Source: Lachnospiraceae bacterium
GTDB lineage: Bacteria > Bacillota_A > Clostridia > Lachnospirales > Lachnospiraceae
Assembly: GCA_017613595.1 (NCBI GenBank)
Contig: JAGADM010000166.1
Location: 1-11,063 of the forward strand
Direction of reading: 5' to 3'
Length of the DNA stretch: 11,063 bases
The notes under the pieces were generated by a model. That model searched no databases, was not told the DNA's origin, and worked only from the letters and a program-made list of their open reading frames with translations. Position numbers and translations under genes: made by a program. Below, piece by piece: positions 1,505-10,919 of the stretch. Numbering within the stretch: position 1 is the first letter of the stretch; each line of letters starts with the position of its first letter.

Positions 1505-2830
1505 ATGACTTACACTCTGTTACCGACATTCGGAACCTTATTTGAATCTTTGTGGGAGTTTCTGTCTTCGGGTGTCGCCATTACTATCTATTTTGTAATT
1601 CTGTTTTTATGTATCGCGGCACTGATCGGAACCGTTCTGATCATGATCCGCGAAGAGGACAAGAACAAGTCGAAGGACGAGCGCGTAAGCGGCGGAGCGG
1701 TTACGGACGAGAACGGCGAGATCATCACGGATGATGACGACGACGGCATCACGTCCCGTTTCCATTCTCTCGTTCAGATGGACCGTGCGTACGCGGCTTA
1801 CCGCGCGCCGATTTATGACGATGAGATTACGCTGCCGGATATCTGCCGGAATTTCCGGAACTATGCGGCCGCGAATCTCGGTCTCTACTACAGCGAAGAA
1901 GATGTCCGCCGTTTCATCGCCGGCATCGGCGTTTCGCACCTGCTTGTCATGCAGGGTCTTTCCGGTACCGGTAAGACTTCCATGGCTACCGCGTTCGGCA
2001 ACTACCTGAACAATCCTTCAACGGTTGTATCCGTACAGCCGATGTGGAAGGAGCGTTCCGACATCATCGGCTACTTCAACGAGTTCACGAAGCGTTTCAG
2101 CGAGGGTACTCTTCTGAAGAAGCTGTACGAAGCAAGATACACGGACGAAATTTATGTCATCGTTCTCGATGAGATGAACATCGCGCGTGTTGAGTACTAT
2201 TTCGCGGACTTCCTTTCCCAGATGGAGCTGAGTCCTGCGAACCGTTACCTCGAAGTCGTTTCGGATACCTGGAGGGATGACCCGAAGCTTCTCGAGCGCG
2301 GACGTCTGCGTATTCCGGAAAATGTGTGGTTCATCGGCACAGCCAACAACGACGACTCCACATTTGCCGTATCCGATAAGGTTTACGACCGTGCGATGAT
2401 CATGAACCTGGACCGCAAGGCCGAGGAGTTCATTCCGGTCGGCAACAACGGCAACCGCATCAGCTTTGCCCACTTTACGGATCTTGTCCGTGAGGCAAAG
2501 GCAAGGTTCCGTCTTTCCGACGATATGCGCGCGAAGATCCGCGCCGTCGACGAATTCCTGACCGAGCGTTTCCGTGTTACCTACGGTAACCGTATCCGCA
2601 GGCAGATGGAAGAGTACATTCCGCTTTACCTCGCGTGCGGCGGACAGGAGATTGATGCCGTAGACGACATGCTTGCCAAGAAGGTACTTCGTAAGCTTGA
2701 CGGATTGAGCCCGATCGTAATCCGTTATTCGATGGATGAACTCGAGGAACTGTTTACCTCGACGTTCGGCGCGGACAAGATGCCTTTGTGCAGAGACAGC
2801 CTCGACCGGCTCAGGAGAAATGCTCAGTAA
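1505..2830 (+). CDS. Membrane-anchored McrB-like AAA+ ATPase (copy 1)
   Basis: 441-residue AAA+ ATPase. Residues about 24-48 are one strongly hydrophobic membrane segment, followed by an acidic linker (DDDDD at 76-80) and the ATPase from about residue 100. Visible motifs: Walker A GLSGTGKT (151-158), Walker B VIVLDE (218-223) followed by MNIARVEYYFADFL, sensor-1 region WFIGTANN (275-282) and DKVYDRAM (291-298), with Arg296 a candidate arginine finger. The DE-N-A-RVE-YF pattern after Walker B resembles the McrB branch. ATP or GTP use cannot be told by eye. ATG at 1505 has GGAGGG five bases upstream; an in-frame GTG at 1442 lies almost at the predicted transcription start. The ATPase domain should be cytoplasmic and the short N-terminus outside. 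It is a paralogue of the gene at 4348. Likely role (inferred): motor or remodelling ATPase of the envelope system encoded by this operon. Confidence 0.9.
   Translation: MTYTLLPTFGTLFESLWEFLSSGVAITIYFVILFLCIAALIGTVLIMIREEDKNKSKDERVSGGAVTDENGEIITDDDDDGITSRFHSLVQMDRAYAAYRAPIYDDEITLPDICRNFRNYAAANLGLYYSEEDVRRFIAGIGVSHLLVMQGLSGTGKTSMATAFGNYLNNPSTVVSVQPMWKERSDIIGYFNEFTKRFSEGTLLKKLYEARYTDEIYVIVLDEMNIARVEYYFADFLSQMELSPANRYLEVVSDTWRDDPKLLERGRLRIPENVWFIGTANNDDSTFAVSDKVYDRAMIMNLDRKAEEFIPVGNNGNRISFAHFTDLVREAKARFRLSDDMRAKIRAVDEFLTERFRVTYGNRIRRQMEEYIPLYLACGGQEIDAVDDMLAKKVLRKLDGLSPIVIRYSMDELEELFTSTFGADKMPLCRDSLDRLRRNAQ
1947..1980 (+). repeat. P-loop DNA segment shared with copy 2
   Basis: These 34 bases, covering the Walker A motif, are identical to 4832-4865 in the second AAA+ gene although the flanks differ at synonymous positions. 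This is part of the tandem gene duplication. Confidence 0.9.
2315..2409 (+). repeat. Sensor-1/arginine-finger DNA segment shared with copy 2
   Basis: These 95 bases match 5200-5294 in the second AAA+ gene with only three differences, including a 45-base perfectly identical run. DNA on either side is clearly less similar, which suggests gene conversion or strong local constraint. Confidence 0.9.
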
Positions 2831-2842
2831 GGGGGAACCGTT

Positions 2843-4342
2843 ATGTATGATGCAATAATGGATCAGTATCATCGGGCCCTGAAGCGTTTCCGCGCGGAAC
2901 TGAGCGAGACCAAGTCGAGCACCAAGTTGAAGGGACTGATTGCGAGAAACGGACGCCACGAAGAGCGGCTGTCCGACGTCTCGTATGATATTAAGATCGA
3001 GGATGACTGGATGGACCGTATCGAGGCGGCAATCCCGCATCTCGAAGCCGCGATCCGTGAGGACCGCCAGTTCATCAAATCGGAGGGCAACATCTCTCCG
3101 ATCGAACGTGTCCGCAAGGTTTCCCGTTCGAGCGTGGAACATCTGGCAAGACACAGTGAGATGATCACTCATGTTCCGGATGAGGGCGAGGACCTGATCC
3201 CGGACAAGTTAAAGGTATATGAGAACGAGAGCAACTACGCCGTTTACGAGAACCGTGTGCTTTACATGGTTATCTGCTATGCCCGCGACTTCATCGACCA
3301 CCGGTATTTCCGCATCAACAATGCGTGGAAGGAACGGAGCGCCGAGATGGAATTCGCGAAGAAGGTTTCCGCGCCCGGCGGCGCGATCACCTTTGAGCTG
3401 AAACTGTGCGACAACACAGGCGGATTTGCCGATGACGAGGTTATGGAAGTCGGCCGTAAGATCGCCCGGATCGAGGGCATGTCGGGATCGCTCGCGATGC
3501 TTCTCAATATGCCGCTGATGCGTGAGATGGCGCTTGCGCCGATGGCGACGCCGCCGATTACGAGAACGAACGTGCTCCGTATGGATACGCACTTCAAGGA
3601 AGTGGTTGCCCTGTATGATTTTTTGAGCAGCTACGAGAAGGACGGATTCACGATGGAGAAGCGCGAGAACCGGATCAGCCCGTTCCCGAGCGAGATGGAG
3701 GAGGAGATCACCGAGCTCGTTCTCACATCCATGTATCTGAATTTCAAGTACGGAAAGAATGCCGCGGACGAACTCGAAGCCAACTACCAGGCCGAAGAGA
3801 AACGCCGCGAAGAGGAGCGCAGACAGCGCTTTGAGGAACTGTACGCCAAGGGCGAAATGAGCCCCGAGCAGATCCGCGAGTATCTTGTCTCAATCATCGA
3901 AGACCGTGATGACGAGATTGAGATCCTCCGCAGAAAGCTCGCCGAGGCGGAACGCGTTCAGGCAGCGCTTGACGAGGCGGGCATCCGCCAGAGAGCGCTT
4001 GAGGACCGTGTGAAGCAGGTTCTTGCCGAGAAGGAATCGGTTGCGGGACGGCTTGCTGCCGAGAAGAAGCAGGAGATGCTCCGCGCCGAAGGTCTTGAGA
4101 AGGAGACGGCAATGTTAAAGCAGGTGCAGATGGACCAGCTGAACAGAAACCGTTATCTCGAGGCGCGTCTCATCGGTCTGATGGAAGCGTACGGCATTGA
4201 AAAGCCGGTTAAGGATATGACCGAAAAGGAAGCTTTTCTCGAACTCGAGAAAGAGCGTGAAGCGTTTGAACAGTTCTATCTGCGGAACTGGAAGGGCGCC
4301 AAGAAGAAGATCCGTAAGCGGATCCTGTGGGGAAGGAAGTGA
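2843..4342 (+). CDS. Coiled-coil protein with DUF2357-like motif; putative AAA+ partner
   Basis: 499-residue soluble protein with no signal peptide or membrane segment. Residues 120-155 contain KLKVYENESNYAVYENR and then a hydrophobic helix, which recalls the N...YENR motif of DUF2357/McrC-like proteins that partner McrB-type ATPases. I recognise this only as a resemblance. Residues about 270-300 hold a motif SPFPSEMEEEITELVLTSMY. From about 305 to 450 the sequence is rich in Glu, Lys, Arg and Ala in heptad-like order and should form a long coiled coil. The C-terminus is very basic (KGAKKKIRKRILWGRK). I see no PD-(D/E)xK nuclease motif. ATG at 2843 follows a G-rich ribosome binding site (2831-2835). 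The gene lies between the two AAA+ genes and its stop is embedded in the next gene's ribosome binding site. Likely an adaptor or regulator for the ATPases (inferred). Confidence 0.85.
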   Translation: MYDAIMDQYHRALKRFRAELSETKSSTKLKGLIARNGRHEERLSDVSYDIKIEDDWMDRIEAAIPHLEAAIREDRQFIKSEGNISPIERVRKVSRSSVEHLARHSEMITHVPDEGEDLIPDKLKVYENESNYAVYENRVLYMVICYARDFIDHRYFRINNAWKERSAEMEFAKKVSAPGGAITFELKLCDNTGGFADDEVMEVGRKIARIEGMSGSLAMLLNMPLMREMALAPMATPPITRTNVLRMDTHFKEVVALYDFLSSYEKDGFTMEKRENRISPFPSEMEEEITELVLTSMYLNFKYGKNAADELEANYQAEEKRREEERRQRFEELYAKGEMSPEQIREYLVSIIEDRDDEIEILRRKLAEAERVQAALDEAGIRQRALEDRVKQVLAEKESVAGRLAAEKKQEMLRAEGLEKETAMLKQVQMDQLNRNRYLEARLIGLMEAYGIEKPVKDMTEKEAFLELEKEREAFEQFYLRNWKGAKKKIRKRILWGRK

Positions 4343-4347
4343 CGAAA

Positions 4348-5715
4348 TTGGTGGAGAAGAAAAGAGGATTTTCCTTTTACCGTCTGTTTCTGATCGTCGG
4401 CGGACTGGCGCTTTTATGCATCATTCTGATCATCGTCGGCATCAGTGCGGCGGACAATGAAGACCTCGCCGGCGTGTTCGGAAGCCGGTCGTTGGTCCGT
4501 TCGGAAACCGTATATCTGACACTGCTTCTGGCGCTTCTGCTGCCGGTGGCGCTGTGTGCATTGACCATCTTCATTGCAAAGGAAAAGGTAGGCTTTATCC
4601 TTTTCCGCGATAAGGAGGATGAAACCGAGGAGGAAGGCGTACGTTTCCATTCGCTCAGAACGATTGACGAAGAGATGAAGAACTACGTCGCGCCGGCCTA
4701 CCAGTCCATTGACAGCCTGCGGTACATCTGCAATGATTTCCGCAACTTCGCGGCGCAGAAACTCGGACTTTTCTATGAGGAGGACGATATCCGCAAGTTC
4801 GTGGCAGGTTTTGCCGTATCGCACCTGATGATCATGCAGGGTCTTTCCGGTACCGGTAAGACTTCGCTGGCAACCGCGTTCGGTGAGTACCTGAACAACC
4901 GCTCGACGGTTATTTCCGTACAGCCGATGTGGCGTGAGCGTGCCGATGTCATCGGTTATTTCAACGAATTCACGAAGCGGTTCAGCGAGAGCCCGCTCCT
5001 TAAGAAACTGTACGAGGCCCGCTATACCGACGAGATTTACATCGTTGTTCTGGATGAGGTTAACATCGCCCGTGTCGAGTATTATTTCGCGGATTTCCTT
5101 TCGCTGATGGAACTGAGCGCGGACAACCGTTATCTCGAGATGACCTCCGATACGTGGGAGAAGGATCCGGAACTGTTCGTACAGGGCCGTTTCCGTCTGC
5201 CGGAAAATGTGTGGTTCATCGGCACGGCCAACAACGATGACTCCACATTTGCCGTATCCGATAAGGTTTACGACCGTGCGATGGTCATGAACCTCGACCG
5301 TAAGGCGGGAGCGTTCTTCGCACCCGAGACCGACGGCATTAAGATTTCGTTTTCGCAGTTCAGGGCTTTGACCGAGGGCGCCGAGAGAGCGTTCCCGATG
5401 TCGGAGGACGCGAAGCGGATGGTTCAGGATATCGATGAATTCCTGATGGAGAATTACCATATCACCTACGGTAACCGTATCCGCAACCAGATGGAGAAAT
5501 ACATCGCGGTGTATATCGGCTGCGGCGGAACGGAGCAGGAAGCTCTGGATGATTTCCTTTCGAAGAAGATCCTCCGGAAGCTGGAAGGCCAGAATCCTAC
5601 CGTAATCGCGAAAGCAAGCAAGGCGCTGACCGAGAAACTCGAGGATATGTTCGGCGAGAACGGCATGCCGCTCTGCACCAACTACCTTAAGTTCCTTCGT
5701 CAGATGACGTCCTGA
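4348..5715 (+). CDS. Membrane-anchored McrB-like AAA+ ATPase (copy 2)
   Basis: 455-residue paralogue of the gene at 1505. Two membrane segments (about residues 11-33 and 55-77) replace the single one of copy 1, which would put both the N-terminus and the ATPase in the cytoplasm. Motifs: Walker A GLSGTGKT (165-172), Walker B IVVLDE (232-237), sensor-1 region GTANN (302-306) and DKVYDR (305-310 region). Similarity to copy 1 starts at RFHSL (99-103) and runs to the end; the membrane parts are unrelated. The start is uncertain. TTG at 4348 is favoured, 5 bases after AAGGAAGTGA (4333-4342), a strong ribosome binding match that contains the stop of the preceding gene. GTG at 4351 is close behind; GTG at 4327 has no ribosome binding site. 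Two unlike anchors on near-identical motors suggest a mixed ring (inferred). Confidence 0.88.
   Translation: MVEKKRGFSFYRLFLIVGGLALLCIILIIVGISAADNEDLAGVFGSRSLVRSETVYLTLLLALLLPVALCALTIFIAKEKVGFILFRDKEDETEEEGVRFHSLRTIDEEMKNYVAPAYQSIDSLRYICNDFRNFAAQKLGLFYEEDDIRKFVAGFAVSHLMIMQGLSGTGKTSLATAFGEYLNNRSTVISVQPMWRERADVIGYFNEFTKRFSESPLLKKLYEARYTDEIYIVVLDEVNIARVEYYFADFLSLMELSADNRYLEMTSDTWEKDPELFVQGRFRLPENVWFIGTANNDDSTFAVSDKVYDRAMVMNLDRKAGAFFAPETDGIKISFSQFRALTEGAERAFPMSEDAKRMVQDIDEFLMENYHITYGNRIRNQMEKYIAVYIGCGGTEQEALDDFLSKKILRKLEGQNPTVIAKASKALTEKLEDMFGENGMPLCTNYLKFLRQMTS
4832..4865 (+). repeat. P-loop DNA segment shared with copy 1
   Basis: Identical to 1947-1980 over 34 bases; see the first copy. Confidence 0.9.
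5200..5294 (+). repeat. Sensor-1/arginine-finger DNA segment shared with copy 1
   Basis: Matches 2315-2409 at 92 of 95 positions; see the first copy. Confidence 0.9.
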
Positions 5716-5741
5716 TCAAAGTGGGGAGAAAGGATACAGGA

Positions 5742-6875
5742 ATGCAAAAGAAGCATATACCAATTTATCTGTTTGGCTCCGCCTGCATCGCGCTTGTCGC
5801 TGCGCTGATCGTGCTGACGGGGATCATTTCAACCGGCAGTTTCCAGGTCCGTAAGATCAAACTGGTAATTGCCACCGGCAGTGATACAAAGGAGTATGAC
5901 GGCACACCGCTCCGCTGCGACGAGTGGGCACTGATCGAAGGCGAGCCGATGAAGGAGCATACGCTCCGCGTTATCGTCCGCGGCGAGCGTACCGCGTTCG
6001 GTACGAGCGAGAACCATGCCGAGGTAACCGTTATCGATAAGGGCGGTCTCGATGTGACGAAGCAGTATGATATCGAGGTCAATGCCGGCGAGCTCGAGGT
6101 TACCCGCAGAAAGCTTACCATCAAGAGCGACTCGGTAACGGAAGTATATACCGGCGAACAGGTTACCTGTCCGAAGGTTCGTATCACGGACGGACGGCTT
6201 CGTATCGGCGACCGTCTGGAGGGCGAGGGATTCCCGACCTACGTGGAGCCCGGCAAATACGAAAACTACTTCAATCCGATCATTCGTGACGAGGAGAACA
6301 ATGTTGTTACGGCCAACTACGATATTACCTGTGTTTACGGCGATATCATTATCCGGAACGGCTACCTTGTTCTTGCCTCCGATTCAAAGGAGAAAGAGTA
6401 CGACGGCGTCGAGCTGTCCGCGAACACCTGCTATATCGAGGAAGGCCAGCTGCATTCGGGCGACCGGATTGAAATGAAGGCGGTCGGAACAATCACCGGT
6501 GTCGGCAAGCGTATCAACAGCATAGACGCGAAGATTGTCAACGCGAAAGGCGAAGACGTAACCGATCTTTATGAGATCAGCTATAATCCCGGCTTACTTG
6601 TTGTAACGCCGAGAAAAATCGTCATCCGTACGCATGACGTGGAACGCGCGGCCGGTCCGGAAAATGCGGAAGAGGATGACTGGAGTATTGTGAGCGGAAC
6701 ACTCGCTCCCGGGGAAGAAATTACAGTTAAGACAACACAGCAGACGATCCATGATCCCGGCGAACGTGAGAATACGGTTGTTTACGTATTCATCCACCAG
6801 AGCGGAAGCATGGTCAATGTTGCAAGTTACTATCAGATTTCATACTATTACGGACATGCCGTAATTCATTGGTGA
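5742..6875 (+). CDS. Membrane-anchored extracellular protein with four MBG/YDG-like repeats
   Basis: 377-residue protein. Residues 5-30 form an uncleaved-looking N-terminal membrane anchor after a short basic start (MQKKH), so the rest should lie outside the membrane. The outer part is almost wholly made of four beta-rich repeats of about 80-100 residues (roughly 38-121, 123-206, 208-291, 292-377). Repeats 1 and 3 carry the K-EYDG signature (51-54, 219-222), repeat 2 has the variant VYTG, and each ends in a strand of the type GELEVTRRKLTI or GLLVVTPRKIVI. This resembles MBG/YDG-type immunoglobulin-like domains of surface proteins. No catalytic motif is visible. ATG at 5742 has AGGA (5731-5734) upstream; the in-frame GTG at 5721 lacks one. 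Probably a structural or binding subunit that works with the next gene, which has the same repeats. Confidence 0.87.
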   Translation: MQKKHIPIYLFGSACIALVAALIVLTGIISTGSFQVRKIKLVIATGSDTKEYDGTPLRCDEWALIEGEPMKEHTLRVIVRGERTAFGTSENHAEVTVIDKGGLDVTKQYDIEVNAGELEVTRRKLTIKSDSVTEVYTGEQVTCPKVRITDGRLRIGDRLEGEGFPTYVEPGKYENYFNPIIRDEENNVVTANYDITCVYGDIIIRNGYLVLASDSKEKEYDGVELSANTCYIEEGQLHSGDRIEMKAVGTITGVGKRINSIDAKIVNAKGEDVTDLYEISYNPGLLVVTPRKIVIRTHDVERAAGPENAEEDDWSIVSGTLAPGEEITVKTTQQTIHDPGERENTVVYVFIHQSGSMVNVASYYQISYYYGHAVIHW

Positions 6876-6880
6876 GAGAT

Positions 6881-9469
6881 ATGTATGAGAGTTATGAACA
6901 GTTGATCAAAAAATACGCCGCGATCCTCCGGACCGTGTGTATCGTGCTGGCCGTGCTGGCATTTGCCGCACTGCTCGGCGCCGGATACATATTCGGGATC
7001 GGCGTGGCTTTCGGGGACGTGGAATGTCCCTCGGTGGTGTACGGCGATAAGCCGGAGCCGTCGCTTTCCGCAAGCGTTCCGACAAAGTTCGAATACCGGC
7101 TCGCGGACGACAAGGACGCGGCGTTTACGAGTGAAGTGCCGGTCAATGCCGGCAGCTATGTAGTCCGTGCCTATACGGTTTCCTTAATCGGGTTCAAGCG
7201 TTATGCAAGCGAGACCAAGTTTGAGATCCGTCCCGCAAAGCTTACCGTGAAGGTTCCGAAGAAGGAGGATTACTGCCCGGTCGAGGAAATCCGCATCGAT
7301 CCTTCCGAATGCACGGTCAGCGGTCTGCAGTACGGTGATACGGCAGGCGAGCCGGAGCTTCAGTATGATTATGCGGGTCAGACGGCTACCGTCCGTGTTG
7401 TTTCGATTCCGGTCACACACCGGGACGGCAGCAACGCGATGGACTGCTATGCCTATTCTTTCGAGAACGGGCTGGTAAGCGATATCCGTGTGCCTCTTTA
7501 TGTTACCGCGGGAAGCAAGACCGTCAGATACGACGGCGACCCGACGGTTGTCGTGACCGAAGAGAGTTATAAACTCAGCGGAAAGCTGATGCCCGGACAC
7601 ACAGGACACTTTGCGTGTGTCGGTGAGCAGAGGGGAATCGGTTCGTCGTCCAATGTAATCAATCTGAATTCGCTGTATATCACGGATGGGGACGACAAGG
7701 ATGTCACTTACATGTACAAGATCCAGTGCGGCGACGGCGTGCTCACATTTGCCCAGCGCAAGATCGTTGTGACGTCGGATTCGGCAAGCAAAGAGTACGA
7801 CGGACTGCCGCTTGTACAGCATTCCTGTAAGATCGGCGGCGAAGGTCTGGCCGAAGGAGATGAACTGAAGGTTGATTATCCTTCGTATATCATTTACCCC
7901 GGTAAGGTCAGTAATGAACTTGAAAACCTTCGCATCGTAAGCCGGAAGTTCGGCGATGTGACGGATTACTATGACATCACGATCAAGCTCGGAACGCTTA
8001 AGATCACGTCGGAAGAAGAAAAATACGAAGCCCCTGACGATGACGAGTTCAATATGGATATGAACTCCAATCCGTTTGAAGGGATGGCGGACGGAACCGC
8101 GGAAGACGGTCCCACGATTTTCGAATATTACGGCGTTGTGACCGGCCGTACCTACTTTAAGGAGGCCGCTTACGGCGTATATACCGGAAGAGGTTTCAAA
8201 AAGACGCCCGGCGAAGACGAGTACGGCAATTACGGGAACTATCTTACCGGTAATTCCCTGAAATCCGCAGGCAAAGGTCCGAGGCGGATGTATATTCGGA
8301 ACTACAATCTGAACGGCAGGGTTTATCCGTATCACATGGCGGACGATATGAAGAAGCCGCTTGAGTCGGAAGGTTTCCGCTATGATTACAATTATGAGAT
8401 TTACCAGCTGCCGGAAGACTTCTCCGGTGTGTATTCAGACGAAGAGCGCGAGTATGCCGATTTCGTACACAAAAACTATATGGATGTACCGGACGATGTG
8501 GCTGAGGTACTTCGTGAACTCGGCGAGTCGGCAGGCATCGATCCGAACAGTGAGACACTCGTGGAGGACATCGCGGAATACATTTCGACGGCGGCAACGT
8601 ATAACCTGAGATTTGCCCCGTATCCGGACGATGAGGATATGGTTATCTACTTCTTAACAGGAAGCAAGGAGGGCATTTGCCAGCATTATGCCGCGGCGGC
8701 TACACTGATGTACCGCATATACGGCATTCCGGCCCGTTTCGTTGTCGGTCTCGCGCCGGAAGGTTTCCGCAGTACCTGGAATCCGGTATTGCCGAAGGAC
8801 GGCCATGCCTGGACCGAGGTATACATAGACGGAACCGGCTGGGTTCCCGTGGAAGTAACCGGAAGCAGTTCGGACTTCGACGGATACGGCGGCGGCGGAA
8901 TGTTCGGCTATATTTCCGTTGATTACGAAGACATCAAGGATCAGGCCAACCTGATCGTCGTTTCGTTCAACTACTACGAGAAAGAGTATGACGGTCTGCC
9001 GGTTCTCAACATTGAACCCGGCGGAGAATTCATTCAGGGTTCCGTGGAACCGAACGAAGCGGTTATCTGTCAGGGCGAGATCATGACGGCTCCCGAGTAT
9101 GTCGGAGAGTATATTTTCTACGGAGACGCGATCGTTGTCCGGGATGACGGAACCGATGTGACGGACAATTACTTTATTACGATCTATCAGGTACCGACCA
9201 TCAAGATCAAGCCGCGCTCGATTGAAATTACGACTTACGGCATGGAGGGCGCAGAGCAGGACGGCCGTCTCGAGAGCAGCGGATGGTTCCTTTCGAAGGG
9301 AACGCTCGCAAGCGGCGACCGCATTGAACTGACACTCGACGCGAGCCAGTACAAGATCGGAACGACGGCAAATACGCCGCGATACATTCATGTTATCAAT
9401 GAGAACGGCGAAGATATCACGGACTGCTATAACATTTCCATCAACAGCGGTTCGCTTGTAGTAAAGTAG
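6881..9469 (+). CDS. Membrane-anchored extracellular transglutaminase-like protein with MBG/YDG-like repeats
   Basis: 862-residue protein. Residues about 15-42 are an N-terminal membrane anchor. Residues about 47-375 hold several beta-rich repeats, with K-EYDG at 304-308. A region at 411-445 (FEYYGVVTGRTY, then YGVYTGRGF) resembles the strand-rich part before the enzyme domain in TgpA-like proteins. The transglutaminase core covers about 515-665: Cys600 in GICQHYAAAATLMYRIYGIP, His642 in DGHAWTEVYIDGTGW, and Glu658 (WVPVEVT) where the family usually has Asp. Two more repeats follow (about 690-785 and 786-862; EYDG at 702-705). No LPxTG motif or second membrane segment is seen. Such domains can act as transglutaminases or as cysteine peptidases; the substrate is unknown. 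ATG at 6881 is preceded by GGTGA (6871-6875), which holds the upstream gene's stop. TTG 6869 and GTG 6872 are weaker choices. Confidence 0.9.
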   Translation: MYESYEQLIKKYAAILRTVCIVLAVLAFAALLGAGYIFGIGVAFGDVECPSVVYGDKPEPSLSASVPTKFEYRLADDKDAAFTSEVPVNAGSYVVRAYTVSLIGFKRYASETKFEIRPAKLTVKVPKKEDYCPVEEIRIDPSECTVSGLQYGDTAGEPELQYDYAGQTATVRVVSIPVTHRDGSNAMDCYAYSFENGLVSDIRVPLYVTAGSKTVRYDGDPTVVVTEESYKLSGKLMPGHTGHFACVGEQRGIGSSSNVINLNSLYITDGDDKDVTYMYKIQCGDGVLTFAQRKIVVTSDSASKEYDGLPLVQHSCKIGGEGLAEGDELKVDYPSYIIYPGKVSNELENLRIVSRKFGDVTDYYDITIKLGTLKITSEEEKYEAPDDDEFNMDMNSNPFEGMADGTAEDGPTIFEYYGVVTGRTYFKEAAYGVYTGRGFKKTPGEDEYGNYGNYLTGNSLKSAGKGPRRMYIRNYNLNGRVYPYHMADDMKKPLESEGFRYDYNYEIYQLPEDFSGVYSDEEREYADFVHKNYMDVPDDVAEVLRELGESAGIDPNSETLVEDIAEYISTAATYNLRFAPYPDDEDMVIYFLTGSKEGICQHYAAAATLMYRIYGIPARFVVGLAPEGFRSTWNPVLPKDGHAWTEVYIDGTGWVPVEVTGSSSDFDGYGGGGMFGYISVDYEDIKDQANLIVVSFNYYEKEYDGLPVLNIEPGGEFIQGSVEPNEAVICQGEIMTAPEYVGEYIFYGDAIVVRDDGTDVTDNYFITIYQVPTIKIKPRSIEITTYGMEGAEQDGRLESSGWFLSKGTLASGDRIELTLDASQYKIGTTANTPRYIHVINENGEDITDCYNISINSGSLVVK

Positions 9470-9503: not shown

Positions 9504-9524
9504 CCGGGCGGGACATGCGCCCGG
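9504..9524 (+). other. GC-rich hairpin before the MATE gene
   Basis: CCGGGCG (9504-9510) pairs perfectly with CGCCCGG (9518-9524) around a 7-base loop. No T-run follows, so it is not a standard terminator. It sits just upstream of the ribosome-binding-like AAGGAAAGG (9525-9533), suggesting it is part of an untranslated leader or an operon-internal processing or stability element. Confidence 0.45.
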
Positions 9525-9545
9525 AAGGAAAGGCACGGAATACCC

Positions 9546-10919
9546 TTGGAGATTGATGAGAGACAATACAGGAAAATGACGGAAACCCCTGTCGCGATGC
9601 TGGTCATCCGGCTGGGGCTTCCGACAACTCTCAGCATGCTTGTCACAACCGTCTATAACCTTGCGGACAACTATTTCGTCGGCAAGCTCGACAATCCGAG
9701 CGCTTCGGGCGCAATCGGCGTCGTATTCGGTCTGATGGCAATCCTCCAGGCGTTCGGATTCATGTTCGGACACGGCGCCGGAAGCATCATCGCGCGGTCC
9801 CTCGGAAAGAGAGATACCGAACGCGCGACCAGATGCGCGAGCACCGGGTTCTTCTGGTGCTTTTCGGTCGGTATCATGCTGGCGGTTCTCGGACTTACGT
9901 TTCTTACGCCTCTTATGAGGCTTCTCGGAAGTACCGAGACGATACTTCCGTACGCGAAGGAGTATACCCGATACATTTTGCTGGCGGCTCCTTTTCTGAC
10001 GACCAGCTGTGTTCTCAATAACATCCTTCGTTACGAAGGAAGGGCGAGTCTTGCAATGATCGGACTCATGTCCGGCGGAATACTGAATATATTCCTTGAC
10101 TGGCTGTTCACGCTTAAACTCGGACTCGGCGTTACCGGAGCGGGTGTCGCGACCGCGGTTTCGCAGACGATCGGTTTCCTGCTTCTTCTCAGTATGTTCC
10201 TGCGGCATAAGACACAGAGTCGTATCGAGGCAAAGCATGCAAGCCTGAATCCCTCGGATGTGTATGAAATCTGCGCGACCGGATTTCCGAGTATGCTCCG
10301 ACAGGGACTTTCCAGTATCAGTACGATGGTGCTGAACCGTCTCGCGGGCAATTACAGCGACGCGGCGGTAGCGGCAATGACGATCGTGAACCGCATCTCG
10401 TTCTGCGCATTTGCCATCGCGCTCGGTATCGGACAGGGCTTCCAGCCCGTATCGGCTTTCAACTACGGCGCGAAGAAGTATTCCCGCGTGAAGCAGGCAT
10501 TTCTCGTTACCTTCTTTCTCGGGGAAGTTTTTCTCACGATCATGGCAGTCATCGGATGGACCTTCTCAAAGGATCTGGTACGCATATTCCAGAAGGACCC
10601 GGAGGTTATCCGTATCGGAACGAAGGCGCTTCGGTATTTTGTATGGGCGCTCATATTCCAGCCGCTCAGCGTATTTGCCAACATGCTGTTCCAGAGCATC
10701 GGCGCAAACCGTGTCGCATCATTCCTTTCGGGACTCCGAAGCGGCGTGATCCTGATCCCGGTTCTGTGGTTTTCGGAACACTGTTACGGGCTTCTCGGTA
10801 TCCAGACGGCGCAGCCCGTGTCGGATATCATCACATTTGTCATCGCGCTGCCTTTCGTCATCCGGTTCCTTAAGAACCTGCCGCCTGACGATCAGCCGGC
10901 GTTCGCCGTGAACGCTTAA
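9546..10919 (+). CDS. MATE-family multidrug efflux transporter (MepA-like)
   Basis: About 457-residue integral membrane protein with roughly 12 hydrophobic segments, which would export drugs or other cations/organic compounds in exchange for Na+ or H+. Family signatures: MTETPVAMLVIRLGLPT then YNLADNYFVG (37-46) in the first helix, ILRYEGRASLAM, NIFLDWLF (181-188) followed by GVTGAGVATAVSQ, and GQGFQPVSAFNYGAKKY (296-312) in the second half, a pattern common in MepA-type members. The start is uncertain. TTG at 9546 is favoured because it gives the usual short pre-helix N-terminus and lies 12 bases after AAGGAAAGG; ATG 9501, TTG 9480 and ATG 9576 are alternatives. Only about 76 bases separate it from the transglutaminase gene and no terminator is seen there, so read-through is possible. 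Substrate unknown; a link to the upstream operon is not shown. Confidence 0.92.
   Translation: MEIDERQYRKMTETPVAMLVIRLGLPTTLSMLVTTVYNLADNYFVGKLDNPSASGAIGVVFGLMAILQAFGFMFGHGAGSIIARSLGKRDTERATRCASTGFFWCFSVGIMLAVLGLTFLTPLMRLLGSTETILPYAKEYTRYILLAAPFLTTSCVLNNILRYEGRASLAMIGLMSGGILNIFLDWLFTLKLGLGVTGAGVATAVSQTIGFLLLLSMFLRHKTQSRIEAKHASLNPSDVYEICATGFPSMLRQGLSSISTMVLNRLAGNYSDAAVAAMTIVNRISFCAFAIALGIGQGFQPVSAFNYGAKKYSRVKQAFLVTFFLGEVFLTIMAVIGWTFSKDLVRIFQKDPEVIRIGTKALRYFVWALIFQPLSVFANMLFQSIGANRVASFLSGLRSGVILIPVLWFSEHCYGLLGIQTAQPVSDIITFVIALPFVIRFLKNLPPDDQPAFAVNA

Follow-up and report, generated by a model that had tools for sequence, protein, structure and literature searches.

The window analysed here, the whole 11,063-nucleotide stretch of contig JAGADM010000166.1 from a Lachnospiraceae bacterium (GCA_017613595.1), carries on its + strand (1505-9469) a block of five co-directional genes named A1, D, A2, S1 and S2. 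Two of them code for membrane-anchored McrB-type AAA+ proteins, D for a DUF2357-like coiled-coil protein, and the last two for surface repeat proteins, one of which has a transglutaminase core. We propose, by analogy with McrBC, that the block encodes a trans-envelope machine built from McrBC-type parts, in which a mixed AAA ring lying under the membrane and stimulated by the DUF2357 protein would act on the surface proteins; we give this function a probability of about 0.5. The gene order recurs in nearly all testable loci and, in many of them, the two motors share near-identical cores behind different anchors. A preliminary description of this DNA had seen five genes on one strand and had taken the McrB-like ATPases, the DUF2357 partner and the extracellular repeat and transglutaminase proteins for one operon; the first point was confirmed and the second supported. 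The features of the block are the following.

1505-2830, +: A1, McrB-type AAA+ protein of 441 residues with one N-terminal membrane segment (AAA_5, motifs)
2843-4342, +: D, DUF2357-like coiled-coil protein of 499 residues without membrane segment (DUF2357, structure model)
4327-5715, +: A2, McrB-type AAA+ protein of 462 residues with two N-terminal membrane segments (AAA_5, McrB in the PDB, motifs)
5742-6875, +: S1, putative surface repeat protein of 377 residues with one N-terminal anchor (Pfam matches of relatives; orientation deduced)
6881-9469, +: S2, putative surface repeat protein of 862 residues with one N-terminal anchor and a transglutaminase core (Transglut_core)
8555-8854, +: transglutaminase core inside S2 (Cys codon at 8678, His codon at 8804)

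Conservation of the gene order

Genome contigs were scanned with a profile of D, by which 142 relatives were found and 79 loci returned; 53 of these loci held enough DNA for a test of gene order, and genes were searched for in all reading frames. The order A-D-A-S-S on one strand was observed in 50 of the 53 testable loci, a recurrence that is not due to chance and that answers positively the question, raised by the preliminary description, of whether the arrangement is shared across Clostridia. The exceptions are L021, in which A1 lies behind S2 (D-A-S-S-A), L064, in which A1 was not found, and L038, in which the contig ends in S1. Three S-type reading frames are present in L063 and L076.

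According to the record titles, the carriers are mainly Clostridia (Lachnospiraceae, Oscillospiraceae and others), mostly from rumen and gut, together with some Acholeplasmatales, Anaeroplasmataceae, Bacillales and Erysipelotrichaceae. The block is uncommon in the genome samples drawn, the centre genome being counted: D was matched below 1e-200 in 3 of 250 genomes of the family sample and below 1e-50 in 8 of 391 genomes of the class sample, and in the phylum sample (398 genomes) the centre genome gave the sole strong match, the others being weak coiled-coil matches. The gene order was inspected for two of these strong sample matches, L001 and L096 (from G190).

Family and anchors of the two AAA+ motors

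Both motors match AAA_5 above the Pfam cut-off of 22 bits (A1, 24.8 bits; A2, 36.1 bits). Walker A, Walker B and the GTANNDDS motif are intact in A1 (from residues 151, 221 and 278, respectively, followed by SDKVYDRA from residue 290) and in A2 (from residues 172, 242 and 299). When A2, the one motor searched against solved structures by sequence, was compared with them, McrB chains only (6hz4, 6ut6) were returned. By their sequence, the motors are McrB-type and not MoxR-type. The merger with the MoxR/DUF58/TgpA theme put forward in the preliminary description was not borne out: AAA_3, DUF58 and the TgpA membrane-domain family were not among the Pfam matches at E ≤ 1 of the six window proteins scanned, and what links the block to TgpA is the transglutaminase core common to both. 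The AAA protein of the bifidobacterial PFNA operon, discussed below, appears to be MoxR-type. The GTANNDDS motif of both motors is compatible with NxD and NxxD; in the available text of PMC11090510, NxxD is the signature of GTP-type McrB and NxD that of the CoCoNuT branch.

Hydrophobic segments were detected in A1 (one), A2 (two), S1 (one) and S2 (one), all of them N-terminal, and none in D, in agreement with the N-terminal anchoring of both AAA+ proteins reported before. The pattern of one segment in A1 versus two in A2 was found in the window and in most of the complete copies of the other loci.

One motor behind two anchors

The cores of A1 and A2 (about 330 residues) were compared in the 52 loci in which both genes are complete. 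In 21 of them the two cores are identical to two decimals, with N-terminal parts 30-70% identical and the best core from another locus reaching 70-99%. At the DNA level, exact identity between A1 and A2 extends up to 1,163 bp and its onset differs between loci. Over the last 345 codons, summed across the 21 loci, the two copies differ at 207 codons synonymously and at 8 nonsynonymously. In 14 of these loci the copies still differ at one or more codons, which counters assembly collapse as a general cause of the identical cores; no difference is present in the other 7. In the pair L049/L052, the two copies of one genome agree with each other but differ from those of the other genome at 47 codons, the other two pairings accounting for 2 and 2, as gene conversion after the split of the lineages would give.

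A quick tree of the AAA proteins was supported by the Shimodaira-Hasegawa-like approximate likelihood ratio test (SH-aLRT) only and was rooted on an outgroup of three long-branched rows; the pseudo-AAA rows had very long branches and their placement was not used. In this tree, A1 and A2 of the same locus are sisters in 15 of the 18 loci outside Lachnospiraceae, and those of the ten Lachnospiraceae loci and the window fall into two separate clades. A fuller proposal is compatible with these data: one McrB-type motor would be encoded twice with different anchors, its copies kept near-identical by recurrent conversion in many lineages, and a mixed ring with a DUF2357 stalk would drive surface repeat proteins without requiring a wall, an arrangement undescribed in the literature searched. 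We regard it as tentative and less likely than not. Near-identical cores carrying different anchors constitute a natural experiment on the constraints of mixed AAA rings, with the prediction that A1 and A2 share one ring.

The DUF2357-like partner D

The DUF2357 profile matches window D at 21.9 bits, slightly below the Pfam cut-off of 23.3, and was matched at E ≤ 0.01 by 53 of 71 D relatives (best, 6e-9). D can thus be placed in the DUF2357 sequence family. Two models of D were obtained, with a mean predicted local distance difference test score (pLDDT) of 83.8 and 84.6, and one long helix (341-449) is predicted after the N-terminal part. Together with the absence of a detected membrane segment, these results uphold the earlier view of the middle protein as a coiled coil with a DUF2357-like motif. 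No nuclease family was found in D by the Pfam scan of the window proteins and, for the 71 relatives, the nuclease-type names among the matches listed were limited to isolated weak PIN_8/PIN_10 hits (E 0.0016-0.0064).

Surface proteins and transglutaminase

In window S2, Transglut_core was matched at 75.4 bits. The Cys and the His of the core are present and the third position is occupied by Glu, where an Asp is usually found. Among 45 domains matched in relatives by the transglutaminase profile, Cys is retained in 41 and His in 43. The S2 domain can be assigned on these residues to the transglutaminase-like superfamily, with catalytic-type residues. The repeats of the window S proteins gave weak Pfam matches below the cut-offs (YDG, E 0.12; AgI_II_C2, 21.0 and 18.9 bits versus 27.1), and in 25 S proteins scanned, window S1 and S2 included, AgI_II_C2 was found in 11, YDG in 8 and MBG_2 in 5. 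The anchored MBG/YDG-like repeat proteins of the preliminary description, one with a Cys-His transglutaminase, therefore stand as regards the anchors, the transglutaminase and the repeats of the relatives; the window repeats themselves remain below the cut-offs. In the profile searches which it had proposed, AAA_5 and Transglut_core exceeded their thresholds in the window proteins and DUF2357 and YDG fell short. Transglut_core was confined to window S2 among the 25 proteins because the absence of a transglutaminase had been the reason for choosing most of the others.

Before its anchor, S2 keeps a short, predicted cytosolic stretch, in most cases M-(x)-Y-x-x-Y along with basic residues, in nearly all loci listed, an internal start being seen in S2 of L063. 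The outer part of S2 is variable and reaches a 4,255-residue open frame. The last S gene was cut at the edge in 16 loci, 14 of which were extended and 13 of which are now complete (L056 ran off the contig end; L010 and L019 were left unextended); no transglutaminase appeared in any of the 14 extended loci. In total, a transglutaminase was seen in 37 loci and was absent from 17 (4 and 13), the S gene being incomplete at the edge in 3. The transglutaminase was rejected as a universal part and is considered accessory, because it is missing in 17 of the 54 resolvable loci. L079 carries two transglutaminase domains, the listed one with Cys, His and Asp in place.

Cell-wall genes in the carrier genomes

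Genes for FtsW/RodA and for penicillin-binding protein (PBP) transpeptidases were looked for in 45 carrier genomes. Neither was found in 4 of them (L047, L051, L066 and L079), and in the genomes of L044 and L077 FtsW/RodA alone was not found. Because the completeness of the assemblies is not told, the absence of wall genes from the four genomes is not proof. Two of the four (L066 and L079) have the full five-gene order; L047 and L051 do not show it because the A1 region is broken up in the former and the contig is short in the latter. Most of the carriers tested that lack a transglutaminase do have wall genes, so that no link between the transglutaminase and the wall was seen.

Proposed mechanism

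Onto the gene order, families, anchors and motor identity read from the sequences, a mechanism can be projected from McrBC and from the topology. At the cytoplasmic face of the membrane, A1 and A2 would form a single mixed ring, which is suggested because the motor surfaces have to stay interchangeable. D may enter or cap this ring and stimulate it as McrC does McrB. Driven by nucleoside triphosphates, the ring would grip or reposition those tails of S1 and S2 that lie close to the membrane; in this way it could control how a surface repeat layer is assembled, spaced or turned over, and the transglutaminase, where present, might fix or trim that layer. If this is true, an engine of a kind that cuts foreign DNA was converted for work on surface proteins across the membrane, in bacteria of rumen and gut some of which seem to have no wall, and the envelope branch of McrB-type systems, comprising this block and the CoCoPALM systems considered below, gains a testable function.

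Several points weigh against this reading. The complex, its activity and its substrate are predictions from the genes. Fold searches started from the two D models returned no significant match, and McrC is absent from the rows listed, a negative that excludes nothing. In 7 of the 21 loci with identical cores no difference separates A1 from A2, and these are indistinguishable from assembly collapse; conversion was examined by codon pattern in one locus pair only. In the window's own lineage the motors have diverged (64% core identity in the window, A1 and A2 in separate clades), so that core identity is not needed for function there. Selection acting on the motor itself, with no mixed ring involved, could likewise preserve the identity elsewhere. 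L064 lacks A1, and the 17 resolvable loci devoid of transglutaminase have to be accommodated.

Relation to known systems and alternative explanations

In the available text of PMC11090510, CoCoPALM, named in 2024, is described with a McrB bearing a transmembrane segment, a coiled-coil McrC and signal peptidases. It shares with the present block the McrB-type AAA with an N-terminal membrane segment, the DUF2357 coiled-coil partner and the secreted or anchored neighbours. The block differs by its two AAA genes flanking D and by its cargo of MBG/YDG repeats with or without transglutaminase. A less likely reading is that the block belongs within CoCoPALM as the variant of one lineage, its anchored AAA and DUF2357 engine being the same and serving in reality to assemble or process pilus-like fibres, here with other cargo. 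Eighteen weaker D matches were obtained in the family sample, of which 14 were fetched (L084-L095, L097 and L098), and each of the 14 shows one AAA gene, whose product carries an N-terminal hydrophobic segment, next to a DUF2357-type gene and in the company of small anchored proteins. Their partners are scored by the D profile at 109-154 bits and, in the one locus scanned (L088), D matches DUF2357 at 45.9 bits and the gene behind it Peptidase_S26 at 27.1 bits, which fits the CoCoPALM description; the label "CoCoPALM-like" was given to the 14 loci from the published text and not from a protein list. However, the 14 AAA proteins form one clade of their own in the quick tree (SH-aLRT 96), apart from A1 and A2, the window block has two AAA genes, and no signal peptidase family was matched in the six window proteins scanned, the relatives not having been searched for it. 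In two carriers (G1046 and G1052), D is moreover matched a second time, more weakly, outside the block. Because of the separate clade, the block appears to be a hitherto undescribed sister of CoCoPALM that has paired motors and a cargo of its own, the CoCoPALM kind itself being already known. The epithet "undescribed" of the preliminary description can be kept insofar as no identical arrangement was found described, and no paper joining DUF2357 with transglutaminase was met in the literature searched; the sister arrangement had already been named.

The block shares with McrBC type IV restriction (E. coli McrB, 6hz4 and 6ut6) the AAA motor, by sequence, and the DUF2357 partner, but the Pfam scan of D found no nuclease domain, and membrane anchors replace the DNA-recognition domain. 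A restriction nuclease was rejected on this ground; in the reading favoured here, the block is neither a restriction nuclease nor primarily a peptidoglycan enzyme. Membrane anti-phage defence, in which D would sense infection and the driven AAA ring would change the surface or membrane so as to block the phage or kill the cell, seems improbable. The closest three plasmid relatives of A2 (36-40% identity over 60-69%) do lie in phosphatase/kinase/helicase/McrB-like AAA clusters (L080-L082, the three inspected), with a DUF2357 gene annotated in two, and the L080 helicase matches Mokosh MkoA at 311 bits; judging by these relatives, the engine is defence-related by descent. The AAA cores of these Mokosh-like clusters are those 36-40% identical to A2, with the DUF2357 gene adjoining in 2 of 3, but the clusters differ by their kinase, phosphatase and helicase genes, by AAA proteins in which no hydrophobic segment was found and by the lack of surface proteins. 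The candidate defence model PDC-M26A (PADLOC) is matched by A1 at E 1e-42 and by A2 at 1e-43; because CoCoPALM-like and Mokosh-like AAAs match it equally (132 bits each), it marks the motor and not its role. The defence function considered in the preliminary description is further weakened because the scans of D and its relatives found no nuclease domain, because viral contigs held no relative, and because D was matched once, weakly, across 72,556 plasmid records and AAA proteins in 2 of 50,697 phage records. The viral, plasmid and phage searches also gave no support to phage or plasmid cargo. The window block has, besides, housekeeping genes and a tRNA at one flank and a MATE gene at the other.

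A cell-wall remodelling device, whose transglutaminase fold would act on peptidoglycan peptides and be placed by the motors, appears very improbable. The S2 core does resemble the TgpA soluble domain (6g49, E 6e-7 over about 80 residues). The transglutaminase core is common to both proteins; S2 has one N-terminal anchor and repeats, and TgpA a multi-pass membrane domain. A parallel with other genes is the bifidobacterial PFNA operon, in which, in the available text of PMC8430577, an AAA protein, an Ig/FN3-type surface protein and a transglutaminase are combined. Against this function stand the 4 of 45 carriers in which neither FtsW/RodA nor PBP was found, L079 with its two transglutaminase domains among them, and the loci devoid of transglutaminase, most of whose genomes have wall genes; the wall remodelling also suggested earlier is weakened accordingly as the sole role. 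For the trans-envelope machine which we favour, a precedent is offered by PcdA of Staphylococcus aureus, a McrB-family protein gone from restriction to an envelope-linked role, which acts in division with FtsZ and DivIVA (PMC10602043, available text); PcdA differs by its EVE domains, and no surface partner genes are mentioned in that text.

Layout of the window and neighbouring genes

A1 and D are separated by 12 bp, A2 and S1 by 26 bp and S1 and S2 by 5 bp, within the gaps of 5-26 bases given in the preliminary description; D and A2 overlap by 16 bp, which departs from it. A2 starts with GTG, S1 and S2 with ATG. Upstream of the block lies the following element.

1404-1431, +: promoter-like TTGTAA-16-TATAAT, 10/12 matches, with its position as sole support

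The promoter announced in front of the block thus occupies a suitable position, but the window contains such sites no more often than shuffled sequences do (7 found versus 8.4 expected). The block is flanked by a tRNA-Leu on one side and by a multidrug and toxic compound extrusion (MATE) transporter gene on the other (MatE, 189 bits). Insertion at the tRNA-Leu was rejected, the 3' end of the tRNA having no repeat in the window. Other window genes resemble rpsF, ssb and rpsR by their sequence. The MATE gene (9516-10919) closely follows S2 with no terminator between them, and multi-pass genes of 454-479 residues are also found downstream of S2 in L002, L003, L004, L011 and L025; they were not seen in most loci.

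A third, degenerate AAA gene often lies directly upstream of A1 (29 of the 51 loci with room, e.g. L054:5249-8614, L053:7090-8475 and L013:7474-8640), and its Walker positions are lost in both aligned copies (L054 and L053). The L054 copy follows, in one fusion protein, a glycoside-hydrolase-3-like part (Glyco_hydro_3_C, 93 bits; Fn3-like, 47 bits) in which no N-terminal signal was seen. Farther upstream, L029:317-5296 codes for a protein rich in BspA-type leucine-rich repeats (LRR_5, 678 bits), of which L054, L035 and others have shorter relatives, as judged by N-terminal likeness. Also encoded upstream is a small protein of about 230 residues that has three hydrophobic segments and is matched by no Pfam family.

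Outside the block, the second D matches of the two carriers mentioned above (G1046:C4 and G1052:C2; 120 and 133 bits) perhaps belong to CoCoPALM-like blocks. The CoCoPALM-like block of L088 starts with an HD_5 protein (L088:1772-2425, 98 bits), and similar starts are present in several other such loci. The human-gut phage record MT835511.1 encodes an AAA protein 34.5% identical to A2 over 63%. The plasmid clusters L080, L081 and L082 combine Mokosh-like parts with a McrBC-like pair, made of an 800-residue McrB-like AAA and a DUF2357-type protein.

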